Source: Spirosoma profusum | GTDB taxonomy: Bacteria; Bacteroidota; Bacteroidia; Cytophagales; Spirosomataceae | Assembly: GCF_014699005.1 (NCBI RefSeq) | Contig: NZ_JACWZY010000009.1 | Coordinates: 62,001-126,000, forward strand | Reading direction: 5' to 3' | DNA: 64,000 nucleotides | In this document: in pieces, positions 3,272-62,806 of the stretch | Layout: every line of letters starts with the position of its first letter | How positions within the stretch are numbered: the stretch's first letter is position 1 | Notes under the pieces: generated by a model | What the model was told of the DNA's origin: nothing | What the model saw: only the letters and a program-made list of their open reading frames with translations | Database searches by the model: none | Position numbers and translations under genes: made by a program

Positions 3272-4279
3272 TCAGTTTGCCAGGCTTGACTGAGAAAGGA
3301 CAGCAAGTGATTCATCAAAACGCTTCGACTGTACGTTACGTAGAAATTGCTGTAGATGCACCCAGGCATATTGACGTTTCGCTTCACTGCTCTCCAGACT
3401 GATTTCGCAATTCCACAGTTGATCATGAAAGTCTCTGAAATCAAGCTTTTCCATCTCCTCTACGGTCTTTTCTGAAATTGATTTACCTCCAGTGCTTAAG
3501 AGTACACATAGCGCAAAACAGAACACGTGGACGATCTGGCTCATGAACAAGAACCTGGCTCGTTGATAATCAGTGGCCTCTTGGCCAAAATAGCTTCTCA
3601 GAAAATCAGTTTCATCCTGTTCGCTACGGACGATAAAATTGCCCATAGCAGCCAGATCAACGTAGCGATCATTCAAAAAGGCCGCTTCCCAATCGACAAG
3701 CCAGGGGCGATCACCATCGAAAATAATGTTGTCGGGCTTCAGGTCATTGTGGCACGAGACGAAATTTTCCGAATCGTTACGTGGGTAAACTTTTATGATA
3801 CGTTCGTAGGAAGCCAGAAGCTCGTTTATCAAGCTTTCCGGAAGAATACCGGTTGCCTGTAATCGTTGCAGAAACGTATCGACGACGTCAACGTAGTTAA
3901 CCCGATGCGAGAATTTAGGTAATTCATGCACCTGCCGAATTATATCGGCCATCTTGGGAATGGCTTCGGTAAAAGAAAACGGTTTTTCTACGATAAAATC
4001 AGTAATGGAAACTCCATCATCACTACTCAAATAGTGGATAGCCGGCGCGATGCCTGCCTCAGCAGCCGCCTGCATTGAACCAAAATAGTGGATTGGCTTA
4101 TCCCGGGTATCGTCCCGAACGACAACCCGTAGCAGATAAGGATTACTACGTATTACGAGCTTAAAAACCAGTGCTTCGGAAAGCCCTTTCGTCATTTGCT
4201 GAATGCTATCCCATTCGGTTACCCCAAAAGCAGTTTGCAGTGCTTTACTTACGGCTGAATGTTTGTTTTCCGGAATCAT
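3272..4279 (-). CDS. APH/choline kinase-like phosphotransferase
   Basis: The 335-residue protein has the aminoglycoside phosphotransferase/choline kinase fold: an N-lobe with TKGLSEALVFKLVIRSNPYLLRVV, then the catalytic loop SCHNDLKPDNIIFDG (Brenner motif HxDxxxxN) and the metal-binding LVDWEAAFLNDRYVDLA. Both catalytic aspartates are present, so it should be active. Members phosphorylate choline, ethanolamine, homoserine, sugars or antibiotics; nothing in the context fixes the substrate. It is flanked by unrelated genes, so probably monocistronic. Confidence 0.85.
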   Translation of the reverse strand: MIPENKHSAVSKALQTAFGVTEWDSIQQMTKGLSEALVFKLVIRSNPYLLRVVVRDDTRDKPIHYFGSMQAAAEAGIAPAIHYLSSDDGVSITDFIVEKPFSFTEAIPKMADIIRQVHELPKFSHRVNYVDVVDTFLQRLQATGILPESLINELLASYERIIKVYPRNDSENFVSCHNDLKPDNIIFDGDRPWLVDWEAAFLNDRYVDLAAMGNFIVRSEQDETDFLRSYFGQEATDYQRARFLFMSQIVHVFCFALCVLLSTGGKSISEKTVEEMEKLDFRDFHDQLWNCEISLESSEAKRQYAWVHLQQFLRNVQSKRFDESLAVLSQSSLAN

Positions 4280-4463
4280 AAAAGGCGATCATTAGAACGT
4301 AACATCGCCAAATGTATCAATGGTTTTTGTACAAAAATCACGTAGGAAAATATATTTTCGCATTGACCTTTTTTGCATACTAACTGAATTTTCGCTACGT
4401 TAACCAATTAGATACCAGCTACTTGAGGGGCATTATTCTGAAAGGCTTCTTGCTGAAAAGAAA

Positions 4464-4503
4464 AAAGGGCTGAATACGGAAGTAGCCCCATATTCAGCCC
4501 TTT
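4464..4503 (-). terminator. Terminator after the sugar isomerase gene
   Basis: AAAGGGCTGAATA at 4464-4476 pairs perfectly with TATTCAGCCCTTT at 4491-4503, with an A-rich run at 4459-4466 that reads as a U tract on the minus strand. It follows the stop codon at 4525. Confidence 0.85.
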
Positions 4504-4524
4504 GCTACGTAGTAAAGTACTACG

Positions 4525-5493
4525 TTAAACCAGAATTTTGCTCAGGTTCTGGTAGCTCGTCTGCACGCTGTCGATGGATGGAGCCATGTCCTGTTCGACG
4601 AAGAAATACTTCATCCCGGCAATGTCGGCAGCTGCGAATGCCTTTTTAAAATCGACCACGCCGTTGCCCACTTCGGTAAGCGTTTTCAGGTCCTGCTTAA
4701 TGTCTTTCGTATGCCAGAGCGGGAACCGACCAGGGTGTTCCTTGAACAGTGCAACCGGATCTTTACCCGCTTTGGTAGCCCAGGCCAAGTCTAACTCCAT
4801 CTTCACCAGCTCTTTATCGGTTTGCGATAGTATCAATTCATACGGCGTTTTACCGCCTTCGACAGGATCGAATTCGGTAGCATGATTGTGATAAGCAAAC
4901 CCGACTTTTGCTTTTTTGCAGGCTTCGCCCGTTTTCTGAAATACCTCGATGGATTTGTTGATTTCGTCTACCGTGGCCACGGGCGTGCTGGCGCAGACCA
5001 GATACGTAAGCCCACCTTCGGCGGCATCATCCACCAATTGCTGGTAGTTATCGCGTAGGCTCATCATCGGCGGCATTTTCGAAAAATCCATACTCGGCCG
5101 CTGGGCACCGGCTGGTGCTTGCCCCGGATTGGCGCTGCCCGGTTGGGCGGCCGGAGGGGTAGGACGGGGGCGGAAAGGCGCTCCCATCGCATGGTGTGCA
5201 CGCCAATGCATGCCCAAATCCTCGACCAATTGTTTAAACTCTTTTGGCTTATAGCCATAATAGCCGCCCCGTGTGCTGAACGCCGATTCAATTTCCTTGT
5301 AGCCGATAGCAGCCACTTTTTCCAGCCTAGCTTTCGGGTCTTCGTTCATCTGCCGGAAAAGCGTAAATAACTGAAGGCCAATAGGGCGCGTAGCCGTTGG
5401 TACCCACAGATTTTCGGCGGAGGCATAGGAAGCAATAGTTAAGCCACCAATTGCTAGCCCTGATTTTTTGAGAAAGTCTCTTCGTGATGTCAT
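4525..5493 (-). CDS. Sugar phosphate isomerase/epimerase family (TIM barrel)
   Basis: The 322-residue product has a Tat-type leader (TSRRDFLKKSGLAIGGLTIASYASA) followed by a xylose isomerase-like TIM barrel: PIGLQLFTLFRQM, YKEIESAF, YHNHATEFD, MELDLAWATKAG, HTKDIK and FVEQDMA carry the usual Glu/Asp/His metal ligands. An alanine/proline/glycine-rich insert lies near residues 105-135. It follows the PQQ dehydrogenase gene by 93 bp on the same strand. That pairing of a secreted isomerase-like protein with a GSDH-cytochrome fusion recurs in Bacteroidota sugar loci and suggests carbohydrate processing outside the cytoplasm; the exact sugar is unknown. Confidence 0.87.
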   Translation of the reverse strand: MTSRRDFLKKSGLAIGGLTIASYASAENLWVPTATRPIGLQLFTLFRQMNEDPKARLEKVAAIGYKEIESAFSTRGGYYGYKPKEFKQLVEDLGMHWRAHHAMGAPFRPRPTPPAAQPGSANPGQAPAGAQRPSMDFSKMPPMMSLRDNYQQLVDDAAEGGLTYLVCASTPVATVDEINKSIEVFQKTGEACKKAKVGFAYHNHATEFDPVEGGKTPYELILSQTDKELVKMELDLAWATKAGKDPVALFKEHPGRFPLWHTKDIKQDLKTLTEVGNGVVDFKKAFAAADIAGMKYFFVEQDMAPSIDSVQTSYQNLSKILV

Positions 5494-57721: not shown

Positions 57722-59467
57722 ATGCCTGTTCTACAGCCTATTATCGATATCGCCGAATTGCTTCACCAGAAAGGTGTTTCCGAGGTCATTGTTTCTCCGG
57801 GTTCCCGCTCGGCTCCGCTGACGTTGGCTGTCGCCCGACACCCACACCTGCGTGTTCACGTAGTGGCCGACGAACGCTCCGCTGGTTTTATTGGATTGGG
57901 AATTGCCCAGCAAAGCCAGACACCGGTTGCACTTATCTGTACGTCCGGTAGTGCGGTCTATAATTTGGCTCCGGCTGTCGCCGAAGCTTTTTTTCAACAG
58001 GTTCCGCTTCTGGTATTTACCGCCGACCGGCCCCACGAATGGCTGCACCAGCAGGATGGCCAAACCATCGACCAGCCTTATATATATAGGACACACGTTA
58101 AACGGAGTTACGACCTGCCCGCCGACTATAGCCACGCCGATACCCGCTGGTTCATCGAACGGTCAATCAACGAAGCGGTTTCATTCAGTCAGCTTTCTCC
58201 GGCGGGCCCCGTTCATATTAACGTACCGCTAAGAGAGCCTTTTTACCCGGCGGATACCGATACGTTTCAGTATGGGCCAGTACGTACCATTGACGTCTGC
58301 CCCACCCAGCCGACGTTGCCTAATGATGTCTGGCATAAACTATTAACTGAGTGGGAACGTAGCGAACGAATTCTGATCGCCGTTGGTCAGGTTCCGTATA
58401 CGCCGGCACTACGTACTATATTGGGTAAACTGAGCGAGGAATTTGGCATACCGGTTCTGGGCGAGATTACCAGCAACCTCCCCGGCACCAACCAATTTAT
58501 CACGCACACCGATACGTTCCTGGCGGGGATTGACCCGGACGTAGCGAACACGTTACGTCCTGAACTGGTAATTACCCTTGGCAATTCATTTCTGACGCGT
58601 AATCTAAAAACGTTTTTCCGGCAGTACCCGGCTCATCGACACTGGCACATTCAGCCATCCGCCGAACGTATCGTCGATTCGTTCCAGAGCCTTACCACCC
58701 TGATTCCTGCACAGCCCGTTGCTTTTCTGGAAAAATTGTTTGCGGATTTAGACTACCAGCGCTTTCTCCAGGGCGATGATGAAGACAACGAGTCTGAAGC
58801 GGGCGAATTTCTGAACCGCTGGCAAACCGCCGATCACCAGGCCGCCCGGCACGTAGCACAAACCCTCACCGAACCAGACCAACCCCTGACCGACTTTTCG
58901 GCGACTCAGTGTGTACTCGATCAGTTACCCCAACGTAGCATTCTCCATCTGGCCAACAGTATGCCGGTACGTTACGCGAATCTGGTGGGGCTGCGGGGCG
59001 ACCTTGACGTAGCGGTGTTCGCCAATCGGGGTGTTAGTGGCATTGATGGCTGTCTGAGTACGGCGGTAGGCGCTGCCCTCGCCACTGATCAGCCCGTTAC
59101 GTTGCTGATTGGCGATGTGGCTTTCTTTTATGACCGGAATGCACTTTGGTCGAATCCTGTTCCGGCGAATCTACGGATTGTACTGCTTAACAACGACGGC
59201 GGGCATATTTTCCGGATGATCGACGGTCCCAGCCGACAACCGGAACTGGAAACCTATTTTGAAACCCCCCACGGATACACCGCCCAACGTACCGCCCAGG
59301 ACGCCCAAATAGCCTATGCTGTTTGTGCTACGTTAGAACAACTGGCACCCCTCCTCCCCGATTTTTTTCAACCCGGACCTTCTGCCAAACTGATTGAGAT
59401 CACGACCGATAAACATGCTAACCAGAAACAGTTCCAAAAGTACAAATCTAAAATGGCAGGCAACTAA
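57722..59467 (+). CDS. menD: SEPHCHC synthase (menaquinone biosynthesis)
   Basis: The 581-residue ThDP-dependent enzyme has the MenD N terminus ELLHQKGVSEVIVSPGSRSAPLTLAVARHPHLRVHVVADERSAGFIGLGIAQ, the acceptor-site ICTSGSAVYNLAPAVAEAFFQQVPLLVFTADRPHEW, the QDGQTIDQ segment, and the ThDP/Mg motif IGDVAFFYDRNALW...NNDGGHIFRMIDGP. It joins 2-oxoglutarate to isochorismate. Menaquinone as the only quinone fits Bacteroidota. TAATTTTG just before the ATG looks like a promoter element, which would make the transcript almost leaderless. Confidence 0.95.
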   Translation: MPVLQPIIDIAELLHQKGVSEVIVSPGSRSAPLTLAVARHPHLRVHVVADERSAGFIGLGIAQQSQTPVALICTSGSAVYNLAPAVAEAFFQQVPLLVFTADRPHEWLHQQDGQTIDQPYIYRTHVKRSYDLPADYSHADTRWFIERSINEAVSFSQLSPAGPVHINVPLREPFYPADTDTFQYGPVRTIDVCPTQPTLPNDVWHKLLTEWERSERILIAVGQVPYTPALRTILGKLSEEFGIPVLGEITSNLPGTNQFITHTDTFLAGIDPDVANTLRPELVITLGNSFLTRNLKTFFRQYPAHRHWHIQPSAERIVDSFQSLTTLIPAQPVAFLEKLFADLDYQRFLQGDDEDNESEAGEFLNRWQTADHQAARHVAQTLTEPDQPLTDFSATQCVLDQLPQRSILHLANSMPVRYANLVGLRGDLDVAVFANRGVSGIDGCLSTAVGAALATDQPVTLLIGDVAFFYDRNALWSNPVPANLRIVLLNNDGGHIFRMIDGPSRQPELETYFETPHGYTAQRTAQDAQIAYAVCATLEQLAPLLPDFFQPGPSAKLIEITTDKHANQKQFQKYKSKMAGN

Positions 59468-59704
59468 AACGATAGTTATAGTTGCCTGCCTGACTATATC
59501 TTACGACTGGCAATACTATGAATACATTGGCTATTGACAACCTGAAAGAAACGTACACCAACGGGGTAAAAACCATTACATTTCGCTGGAAATGGCAATA
59601 ACCCGATTCCGGAGGTATCCGGCTATTGCCTGATTGCCTGTCGACATGCAGGAATATATTGACCAATAACTGCCACCATTTGAAAAAAATGCATCATTAC
59701 CAAC
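59468..59704. other. Intergenic region between menD and the sigma-like gene
   Basis: No gene is supported in these 237 bases. Confidence 0.5.
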
Positions 59705-61141
59705 ATGAATGGTGTAACGGAGAATTTTTGGGAGATAACGTATAAGCAGAATATAGCTAAACTGATTGGTGTTTGCTATCGATATACGTACAATAGGCAA
59801 ATCGCCGAAGATTTGGCCCATGATGCTTTTCTGGTAGCTATCGATAAAGCATCAAGTTTTGAAAACATAGGCCCTTTTGAAGCCTGGCTTCGGCGAATCG
59901 TCGTAAATGTAGCCTTACAGTACCTCCGTGATCAAAAAAAACAGAAGCAGCATGAAGATGCGCTTACTTACTGCATGCTTTCGAATGACTATCAGGAGGA
60001 TTTTAGTAATCACGAAGAAAATACGTTCTCAGAAGTTGAGCTTTTAGAAGCCATTAACGGTTTGCCTGAACACCATAAACTTGTTTTTAATCTCTATGTA
60101 TTTGATAATTACACGCACCTACAAATTGGAAACGAATTAGGTATCAGTGAAGGAACATCAAAATCACATTTGGCAAGAGCCCGAAAAAAAATAAAGGAAA
60201 TTCTCAATAGTAAATTAAAAGATAAATACAAAAAAAATCGTCTATTTTTTCTGTATTTATTGCCTGATAAACTTTGGAACGTAGATACTATTTTCACAAA
60301 ACGACTGGCGTTTTTCGAAATACAACCGCAAAAAATAGCGCCAATTCATACTCGTCATTTCAGTAACGCATCAGCCCTTACATATAACCAATCTTCATTT
60401 TTATCTTTGAATACTATTTTACCATTCGGTATACTAACGTGTACGTCTATTTTGCTTTTACAAGTTAATTCTCATCAAGAAATCAAAGCGCTTTCACCAG
60501 TAAAAAGACCTGATTTAAAAACGATTAACGGTCCAATTGTTCAGGCTAACAATAGCACTATAAAAAATAATTCAACGACTACGCCAACAACTGCCACCTT
60601 TTCAACTAATGCCATCATATCTATAGAAAAAACTAAACATATCGAAGAAATGAAACCTTTAAACACGTTAGGAGCGCTGCTCGTGGCCGGTTCGGCTTTC
60701 GCTTTGGATTCTGTACATCTACCGAAGTTCCCTCAACTAGCTACTACAGTTAATAATCAGAAACTAATTGAGCAGGATGAAAAGATAACATCGGAATTGA
60801 CAGAAAGAAACAAACCAACGGTTAACAAAGCGTCTGCTGAAGTTTATGGCACTTTTTATGCATCAAGGTTATACTGGTCTGCAGCGGATAATAATATATA
60901 TTTTAAGGGAGAACAAGTTAAGGTCAGTCTTAATTCGCAAAAATTTACGGGGAGCGGCACCTTCTCTTTTTTAAATAAAGTAAATTATTTGTTGGTCAAT
61001 GGCCTCCCGGTGAAATTAGATGATACAGTAGAATTATCCGAAAAGAAATATAAGCTGGTTAAATTAAGCGAAAGCGATGCCATTAAAAAATATGGAGAAA
61101 AAGGCCGGCTCGGAGTTGTAGAAATAACCTTAGCCGAGTAA
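59705..61141 (+). CDS. ECF-type sigma factor fused to membrane and plug-like tail
   Basis: The 478-residue protein starts with sigma-70 region 2 (about 8-78: IAKLIGVCYRYTYNRQIAEDLAHDAFLVAIDKASSFENIGPFEAWLRRIVVNVALQYLRDQ) and region 4 (about 108-168: EAINGLPEHHKLVFNLYVFDNYTHLQIGNELGISEGTSKSHLARARKKIK). A basic linker leads to a membrane segment (about 232-254) and a second hydrophobic stretch (about 318-336). The last 100 residues end LVKLSESDAIKKYGEKGRLG followed by VVEITLAE, like the plug or carboxy tail in BlaR1/TonB-dependent proteins. So the sigma domain seems tethered to the inner membrane with an outside domain in the same chain. The gene is more AT-rich than menD next door. It has no anti-sigma gene beside it. 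Confidence 0.8.
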   Translation: MNGVTENFWEITYKQNIAKLIGVCYRYTYNRQIAEDLAHDAFLVAIDKASSFENIGPFEAWLRRIVVNVALQYLRDQKKQKQHEDALTYCMLSNDYQEDFSNHEENTFSEVELLEAINGLPEHHKLVFNLYVFDNYTHLQIGNELGISEGTSKSHLARARKKIKEILNSKLKDKYKKNRLFFLYLLPDKLWNVDTIFTKRLAFFEIQPQKIAPIHTRHFSNASALTYNQSSFLSLNTILPFGILTCTSILLLQVNSHQEIKALSPVKRPDLKTINGPIVQANNSTIKNNSTTTPTTATFSTNAIISIEKTKHIEEMKPLNTLGALLVAGSAFALDSVHLPKFPQLATTVNNQKLIEQDEKITSELTERNKPTVNKASAEVYGTFYASRLYWSAADNNIYFKGEQVKVSLNSQKFTGSGTFSFLNKVNYLLVNGLPVKLDDTVELSEKKYKLVKLSESDAIKKYGEKGRLGVVEITLAE

Positions 61142-61249: not shown

Positions 61250-62806
61250 TTACTCCATTACCATTTCGGTATGGGCTGGCGTTGCAATTTTCTTCCCGAT
61301 AAACAGGAGTAATAGCGGCACACACACCAGGAAGAAGGCGCCAATAATCAGGAATGTATCAGCATAGGTCATGACCAGGGCCTGTCTCATTACCGCTCCC
61401 TGCATCATCCCGTACGCTTTACCGGTAGCCGTCATCAGCGCATCCCCTTTTGACAGGAACAAGCCAGTAAACTGTTTGATACGTTCGACAGACTGTGGAT
61501 TATAAATCGATACGTTATCGGACAGCCGGGAGGCATGAAATACGGTACGTGTTGAAATGTAGGTCGTCATGATCGCCGTTCCGAACGTACCGCCCAATTG
61601 ACGGATCATACCCGTTAACGCCGAGCCCTGCGGAATCTCAATGTTTTTCAAGTCGGCCAACGTAATGGTCGTTAACGGAATGAATATCATCCCCATACCA
61701 ATACCCCTGATAATCAGCGGCCAGAAGAAATAATCTGGTCCAGCGGCAAGGCTGATGGTCGACAGATCGAAACAGAAGCCGAAAAACAGCAGGAAACCAA
61801 TCGCTGCGTACCAGATGGGCGAGATGTAATTTTTGCTCAATAGCCCTCCCACCACCGGCATCATCAGACCCGTCATGATGGAACCAGGCATCAGCAGTAA
61901 ACCCGTCTGGCTCGCGGTGAAGCCCAGAATCGTCTGACAGAAAACCGGGATAATAAACACCGACGCAAACAGCCCGAATCCCAGAATAAAATTGAACAAC
62001 GTACCGACCGCAAATCGTCGTTCACGTAACAGACTCAGATCCAGAATCGGCTGTTTTACAACCAATTGCCTCCAGATAAACCCGACAATTCCTACCCCTG
62101 CCAGTACGGACATCACCACAATGAACTCAGAGGTAAACCAGTCCTCTTCGTGGCCTTTTTCGAGCACAATCTGTAAGCCACCGATGCCCATCGTCAGGAG
62201 TATCAGCGCGAGCCAGTCCATCCTTCCGGCAACAACTTTTTCGGCAGGCTCTTTAATATATAGGTACGTTAGTATGGTGGCGGCAATTCCAAACGGGATG
62301 TTGATGTAAAACACCCAGTTCCACGACAGATTATCGGTAATGTAACCACCAAGGGTTGGTCCGATAGACGGGCCAATGATAACGCCCATCCCAAAAATGG
62401 CGTTGGCAATACCCAACTGCTCTTTGGGAAAGGTCTGAATCAGAATAGATTGTGCCGTCGTCAGGAGCCCTCCCCCACCAATTCCCTGCACAACCCGAAA
62501 GAAAACCAGTTCCCAGACGTTGGTCGACGTACCACAAAAAACAGACGCGATGGTAAACAGGACGATGGACGCAGCAAAGTAGTTTCGCCGGCCCAGTTTA
62601 GACGTCAGCCAGCCGGACATCGTGATCATGATAGCGCTGGCAGCCGCGTAACCCGTTACTACCCAGCTGATATCACCCAATGATGCGCCCAGATTACCCA
62701 TCATCTGGTTGAGTGTTACGTTCACAATCGACGAGTCGATGGTTTGCAGCAGGGCGGCCGTTGTTACAGTCAACACAACCACCCATTTATCAAAACCTAA
62801 ATTCAT
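61250..62806 (-). CDS. DHA2-family multidrug efflux transporter (EmrB/QacA type)
   Basis: The 518-residue protein has 14 predicted membrane segments and the DHA2 motifs: LQTIDSSIVNVTLNQM in segment 1 (motif D1), GWLTSKLGRRNYF (motif A), RVVQGIGGGGLL (motif B) and GPSIGPTLGGYI (motif C). It would expel drugs or other amphiphiles with protons, working with the HlyD-like partner encoded upstream. It is in an operon with the membrane fusion gene (105 bp gap). Specificity cannot be read from the sequence. Confidence 0.93.
   Translation of the reverse strand: MNLGFDKWVVVLTVTTAALLQTIDSSIVNVTLNQMMGNLGASLGDISWVVTGYAAASAIMITMSGWLTSKLGRRNYFAASIVLFTIASVFCGTSTNVWELVFFRVVQGIGGGGLLTTAQSILIQTFPKEQLGIANAIFGMGVIIGPSIGPTLGGYITDNLSWNWVFYINIPFGIAATILTYLYIKEPAEKVVAGRMDWLALILLTMGIGGLQIVLEKGHEEDWFTSEFIVVMSVLAGVGIVGFIWRQLVVKQPILDLSLLRERRFAVGTLFNFILGFGLFASVFIIPVFCQTILGFTASQTGLLLMPGSIMTGLMMPVVGGLLSKNYISPIWYAAIGFLLFFGFCFDLSTISLAAGPDYFFWPLIIRGIGMGMIFIPLTTITLADLKNIEIPQGSALTGMIRQLGGTFGTAIMTTYISTRTVFHASRLSDNVSIYNPQSVERIKQFTGLFLSKGDALMTATGKAYGMMQGAVMRQALVMTYADTFLIIGAFFLVCVPLLLLFIGKKIATPAHTEMVME

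Follow-up and report, generated by a model that had tools for sequence, protein, structure and literature searches.

A σ factor, a membrane tether and a tail in one reading frame

The window (the whole stretch of 64,000 nucleotides analysed here) contains, at 59705..61141 on the + strand, an ORF that runs from ATG to stop without a break and encodes a protein of 478 aa with the C-terminus GEKGRLGVVEITLAE. Its parts follow one another in the order ECF σ regions 2 and 4, an anti-σ-like stretch with a membrane helix, a variable linker, a weakly hydrophobic stretch and a β-rich tail. Sigma-70 region 2 occupies residues 13-79 (59741..59941, +; Pfam PF04542, Sigma70_r2, 1.1e-14) and Sigma-70 region 4 residues 112-163 (60038..60193, +; PF08281, Sigma70_r4_2, 6.8e-13), so that both lie within the first 170 residues, as the initial annotation had proposed. 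The two Pfam domains are 32 residues apart, in keeping with ECF group IV, in which the linker is shorter than 50 residues. The 478-aa protein scores 86.6 bits against TIGR02937 (above the NCBIfam cut-off of 42.9) and 85.7 against TIGR02985, the Bacteroidetes subfamily (below the cut-off of 126.4). The initial annotation had suggested searching the N- and C-terminal parts separately; residues 171-478 and 316-478, each queried alone, gave no Pfam or NCBIfam match at E<=1.

Two hydrophobic segments follow the σ domains, at about residues 232-256 and 318-334. The first (TM1; 60398..60472, +) reaches a best 19-residue Kyte-Doolittle mean of 1.7-2.2 in the 13 orthologues, and the second is weak (0.9-1.5 in the same 13). 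The full-length structure model places predicted helices at 238-255 and 319-331, both in its low-confidence part; with a mean pLDDT of 54.6 and values below 50 for residues 172-376, the model is uninformative on topology or on σ/anti-σ packing. The flanking genes, named by eye, resemble menD (57722-59467, +) and an MFS-type transporter (61250-62806, −); as noted earlier, no separate anti-σ gene adjoins the ORF.

Full-length orthologues, 42-59% identical to the window protein, are present in 12 other genomes of Spirosoma, Larkinella, Dyadobacter, Xanthocytophaga and further relatives: four of the same genus (G034, G001, G018 and G013); G095, G110, G081 and G083; Larkinella terrae; L. rosea; and two Dyadobacter strains. 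Three of these assemblies (G001, G013 and G018) are single contigs. An assembly join or a frameshift is ruled out, as the frame is common to all 13 genomes and has no internal stop. No unfused two-gene version turned up when the tail was searched for in overlapping draws of 119, 295 and 395 genomes. The initial proposal that σ and membrane tether form one molecule thus withstands the artefact test, and the fusion is real and old.

The tether includes an anti-σ-like segment

The ORFs that directly follow ECF genes in Cytophagales offer a reference for the middle of the protein. At 23 of 24 such loci (L007-L030) the ORF right after the ECF gene begins with a motif of the type IDDLFARKL...P, after which comes a membrane helix, and the ECF gene and the next gene often overlap. 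A comparable motif, D..F...L..FEIQP, lies at residues ~192-208 of the window protein (60278..60328, +), and TM1 aligns with the helix of the ECF-adjacent proteins. An hhalign comparison of the fused middle (13 rows) with these 23 proteins, which are anti-σ factors by position only and in many cases orthologues of one Spirosoma pair, gave a probability of 91 and a score of 39.1, against a maximum of 21.6 in 200 column shuffles. The part before the membrane helix alone scored 28.2, while none of 200 column shuffles exceeded 16.5, and the linker, tail and σ segments scored 6.5-11.0 against the same profile.

By this homology, residues about 192-256 are a fused anti-σ segment with its membrane helix, provided that the references, presumed anti-σ factors from their gene position, are what they seem; with both parts in the same chain as the σ domains, the protein belongs with the fused σ/anti-σ ECF factors. 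The initial annotation had regarded the anti-σ factor as absent, whereas the homology suggests that it is fused, not missing. The translation has no cysteine in residues 171-235.

A bipartite DNA element before and inside the gene

The initial annotation missed a DNA element that is repeated before and within the gene. The element, ACTGC(C/A)ACC-N14/15-CATCAT, shortly precedes the start codon in every one of the 13 orthologues, and all 13 carry it again within the coding sequence. In the window the outer copy (P1, a presumed autoregulated ECF promoter), ACTGCCACC-N14-CATCAT, is an exact match at 59669..59697 (+) and ends 7 nt before the start codon; the inner copy (P2, a presumed internal promoter) is an exact match at 60590..60618 (+), across codons 296-305. 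The two are identical at 22 of 29 positions. Among the orthologues, outer copies have no mismatch in 10 and one in 3, with a spacer of 14 in 11 and of 15 in 2; they end 7 nt before the ATG in 8 orthologues, 19-20 nt before it in 4 and 31 nt before it in one. Inner copies have no mismatch in 8, one in 4 and two in 1, a spacer of 14 in 13/13, and a gap to the internal codon Met316 of 31 nt in 12 and 28 nt in 1. The first block is followed by nTTT in 11/13 outer and 12/13 inner copies.

Synonymous sites around the inner copy are frozen. For codons 289-312, taken as two blocks of 12, the identity of codons encoding the same residue is 0.79 and 0.85, and the next best block reaches 0.61; in 15-codon windows, codon identity is 0.79-0.86 at the element against a median of 0.48, and the best 12 windows listed all overlap it. 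In five disjoint orthologue pairs the same codon is used at 30 of 35 sites within codons 296-306 and at 550 of 1121 elsewhere, a test that takes columns and pairs as independent on a poorly resolved tree. Where Thr296 is replaced by Ser, in two orthologues, the codon is AGT, so that the TGC of the element is retained.

The element is also nearly confined to this gene. In the 8.7-Mb genome of the strain, the 15 fixed bases match exactly twice, both times here (0.016 expected at equal base use); there is one match with one mismatch, and with up to two mismatches there are 35 (the reversed pattern has 27), so looser targets of the σ factor may exist elsewhere in the genome. Among 119 relatives, the strict pattern, which misses the carriers G081 and G083 because of their divergence, gave 31 matches in 19 genomes and the reversed control 6. 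Of the 31, seven carriers account for 14 at the gene itself, and the rest are one at a pseudogene (G015), one at a remnant copy (G018) and 15 elsewhere. The nTTT follows the first block in 16/16 of the gene-linked matches and in 0/15 of the others.

We also scanned the seven carrier genomes with a profile of 20 element sites, scoring 150 of several thousand first-look candidates in each. Fifteen matches fell below E 0.001, the next being 0.024, and these were two per gene in the seven carriers plus one beside the G018 remnant; the profile was built from the known sites and so must match them, and the result lies in the absence of others. No wider regulon was found in the own genome, in the 119 relatives with the pattern or in the seven carriers with the profile at 150 candidates scored each. 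Since the neighbours of the gene differ between clades, the only gene product that always accompanies the element is this σ factor.

An invariant internal methionine and a signal-peptide-like stretch

The inner copy of the element lies upstream of Met316, which is present in 13/13 orthologues and opens a stretch of residues 316-334 (60650..60706, +) that looks like a signal peptide: the methionine is followed by K or R and then by a hydrophobic run of 11-15 residues in all 13; and small residues occupy positions −3 and −1 before [FLA]D[ST], again in 13/13. A home-made signal-peptide rule, set after inspection of the sequences, is passed by 13/13 at Met316 and by 24 of 1100 other internal methionines, and by only 27 of 155 ORF starts. 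The initial annotation was right that two hydrophobic segments exist; a second membrane helix at 318-336 is disfavoured by the hydropathy of the stretch and by its signal-peptide look. In the full-length protein, however, the second stretch could insert, which would place the tail in the cytoplasm.

A tail domain common to M56/BlaR1-type proteins

Residues ~376-478 (60830..61138, +) are modelled with high confidence (pLDDT mostly 81-94) as a β-rich domain with one helix. In a search of 295 genomes of the class, a profile of six fused tails, built without the protein it retrieved, matched the C-terminus of a 412-residue protein of G201 (locus L055) at 3.6e-27. This protein has an M56 domain (3.8e-13) and is encoded directly after a BlaI-like gene (8.7e-25), a result that bears out the earlier suggestion of kinship with the end of BlaR1-type proteins. 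The window protein itself has no Pfam match to the M56 metalloprotease domain, and shares with the M56 protein only the tail. The BlaI-like gene and the M56 gene with the tail lie at L055:6034-7636, which suggests that a protease sensor and a σ factor have exchanged tails; the pattern used for the element found no copy before this operon.

A wider profile (A10) matched 18 of 395 genomes at E<=0.01, and the matches other than those of the own genome and G201 are weak (5.5e-5 to 0.009) and mostly cover the last ~50 residues. Ten ORFs picked from the 20 A10 matches listed, a choice that leaned to those with plug-like ends, included nine with M56 and six with Plug at E<=0.001, four of the six above the Pfam cut-off. 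The last ~50 residues of the tail thus resemble, weakly and by profile, the plug-like ends of M56 proteins. Pfam does not find Plug in the window protein; Foldseek returned no match for the tail at E<=0.001 (Cir 1.7, SusC 2.6); VIA-align gave Z 2.4 for CirA and at best Z 3.2 (CusF); and the tail profile reached only E 0.12 and 0.87 as its best matches among sequences of solved structures.

The element as a putative promoter pair

The first half of the element resembles the −35 box of an ECF σ factor: ACTGCCACCTTT agrees at 9 of 12 positions with the SigW −35 box ATTGAAACCTTT, as the latter is given in a passage of PMC8103513, P2 agreeing at 9/12 and P1 at 8/12. Taken alone this resemblance is weak, since agreement with the SigW box at 9 positions or better is reached by 81 of the window's 127,978 12-mers. 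The passage names AAC at −35, CGT at −10 and positive autoregulation as hallmarks of studied ECF σ factors (PMC8103513), whereas most orthologues carry CCAC instead of AAC in the −35-like half, and CATCAT takes the place of CGT in the −10-like half. As P1 ends only 7 nt before the ATG in 8/13 orthologues, a leaderless transcript is needed if it is a promoter. Housekeeping promoters of Bacteroidota have the form TTTG-N17..23-TAnnTTTG, and no exact match to it was found upstream of the gene, which leaves basal expression unexplained.

We nevertheless consider that the element is best accounted for by a putative pair of ECF promoters specific to this gene, given the ECF-like −35 half, the fixed short spacing, the same orientation before two starts and the co-occurrence with this gene alone. 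It would be odd for a σ factor to have itself as its sole target.

A proposed switch with two products

We propose, as the likelier account though with some reserve, that the gene encodes an autoregulated, tethered σ/anti-σ fusion with two private promoters, the only ones recognisable for it, both in its own gene, the inner of which yields an exported free tail. The ECF σ domain (residues 1-170) would be held at the inner membrane by the fused anti-σ segment and helix (about 192-256), and a signal would act on the outer part, where the BlaR1-type β-rich tail (376-478) follows the tether. Proteolysis would then free the σ domain, by analogy with IutY and ECF52. The freed σ domain, with RNA polymerase, would read P1 to give more of the full-length protein, and P2 (codons 296-305) to give a transcript translated from Met316; the latter would yield a protein of ~163 residues headed by a signal peptide, and in this way only the tail would be exported to the periplasm. 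There the tail would most likely serve as a feedback partner, or as a decoy for the contact made by the tethered tail; this role is a guess, which we hold tentatively and regard as the weakest step. A stricter version, which we rate somewhat short of probable, is a self-contained one-gene circuit: the only promoters of the fusion in the genome would be the two in its own gene; these would drive the protein itself and the secretion of its tail; and the regulon would be the gene itself, portable as a single gene.

Fusions of σ and anti-σ factors are known, and few have been studied. The closest likeness is to IutY of Pseudomonas putida (ECF243), described in the relevant passages of PMC5411451, PMC9249621 and PMC8999054 as σ and anti-σ in one polypeptide, with a cytoplasmic σ domain, one membrane helix and the anti-σ function in the same chain. 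The outer part of IutY resembles FecR and responds to the receptor IutA, and activation is by proteolysis via Prc/RseP; the passages make no mention of an inner promoter-like element. The window protein differs in having no FecR match (no Pfam match for 171-478 at E<=1), a BlaR1-type tail, an anti-σ segment of the Cytophagales ECF-adjacent type and the inner element. ECF48, ECF52 and ECF53 of Actinobacteria (e.g. SCO4117) likewise have a C-terminal membrane extension as a fused anti-σ factor, as excerpted from PMC8999054, but carry a zinc-finger anti-σ domain and other outer domains, neither of which Pfam found in the window protein.

Two further systems share single parts with the locus. Ordinary Cytophagales ECF genes are followed by a membrane protein gene with the motif D..F...L..FE..P and then a membrane helix; that system consists of two genes, whereas the window has one frame. 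The BlaR1/M56 sensor with BlaI (L055) has the same tail domain; here, by contrast, there is neither an M56 protease domain nor a BlaI-like repressor, and the output would be a σ factor. Streptomyces SigR makes a longer isoform from an autoregulated promoter. It resembles the proposed system in being an ECF σ factor whose gene, through its own promoter, gives rise to a further form of the product; the SigR isoform is an N-terminally extended σ factor, whereas the second product here would be an exported tail without σ. Full-text literature searches, judged largely at title level and with the large ECF reclassification paper outside their scope, led us to recognise no published description of this architecture or of such an inner promoter, and we know of no precedent, within the literature searched, for an inner promoter in ECF genes.

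Three other explanations have to be weighed. One, which we consider unlikely, is a plain tethered fusion: a single polypeptide with one or two membrane passes, released by signal-dependent proteolysis, in which the inner element is bound by the σ domain or another factor for feedback, the gene has a single product and Met316 is a mere residue of the chain. IutY and ECF52 are precedents for it, and the frame stays open, without a stop in 13/13, through a linker before Met316 that varies in sequence and in length (57-71 residues), from which it follows that the fusion itself is under selection. However, a plain fusion leaves unexplained why Met316, the MK/MR and the −3/−1 residues are kept in 13/13 beside so variable a linker, and why 28-31 nt are fixed between element and Met316; its second membrane pass would also have to be made by a hydrophobic run of only 11-15 residues.

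A second explanation, decidedly improbable in our view, is evolutionary read-through, in which an ECF/anti-σ pair and a neighbouring target gene for a secreted tail were joined by loss of a stop, the products remaining separate and the joined protein being of little weight. It accounts in one step for a promoter, a start and a signal peptide at the join, and the tail does occur on an unrelated protein; yet the tail searches gave no unfused version, and the frame is open without a stop in 13 divergent genomes. Read-through overlaps with the two-product switch that we prefer, the main difference being whether the joined protein is functional. Finally, we think it very improbable that the element serves another regulator as an operator, acts at the RNA level or is the footprint of a mobile element: the promoter reading draws on sequence evidence, and the gene is sporadic, with differing neighbourhoods and frequent decay, but the element consists of two non-palindromic blocks at 14-15 nt, in the same orientation towards two start codons and with an ECF-like −35, and no other gene product was seen always to accompany it.

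If the two-product switch is true, a promoter hidden in a coding sequence is read by the protein encoded there, which makes one gene a switch with two products and a compact example of a signalling operon collapsing into a single gene. It would also mean that BlaR1-type sensor tails are linked to σ factors, that a DNA site can be what keeps a peptide (here T-A-T-x-S...I-I) conserved, and that a private promoter/σ pair is at hand for Bacteroidota genetics.

Distribution, decayed copies and gene surroundings

An intact gene is present in 5 of 36 Spirosoma genomes, that of the window included. In FastTree/IQ-TREE phylogenies 6 of 10 inner branches are open, so that vertical and horizontal spread cannot be told apart. 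A plasmid collection gave no match at 1e-20; viral contigs gave one weak match, confined to residues 19-94; and an initial contig scan with the single protein as query gave none. Gene neighbourhoods differ between clades, and no conserved partner gene was seen by eye at the orthologue loci. By eye, a TPR-histidine kinase gene lies directly upstream on the same strand, at about 50 bp, in G013 (L005:3000-4445), and similarly in Spirosoma telluris (G015; L063:3691-5766); a SusC-like gene lies downstream at both of these loci, and SusC/SusD-like genes lie near the gene in a few loci.

Four broken copies were found: in S. telluris (L063:5817-6312) codons ~1-29 and the tail are kept and the middle is deleted; in Larkinella sp. 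C7 (L070:5877-6195) an inner deletion has left a piece of σ and a piece of tail; G032 has a tail scrap only (L041:1480-1584); and G018, which also has an intact copy, carries a remnant second copy (L153:4054-4140) made up of the element and about 14 codons, then a stop. Pieces from the front of the gene remain in three of the four (G015, L070 and G018), which suggests that the gene is easily gained or lost. Directly after the G018 remnant, an ORF at 4171-5376 (+) resembles, by eye, a serine β-lactamase-type hydrolase, and the orphan promoter of the remnant may now drive it.
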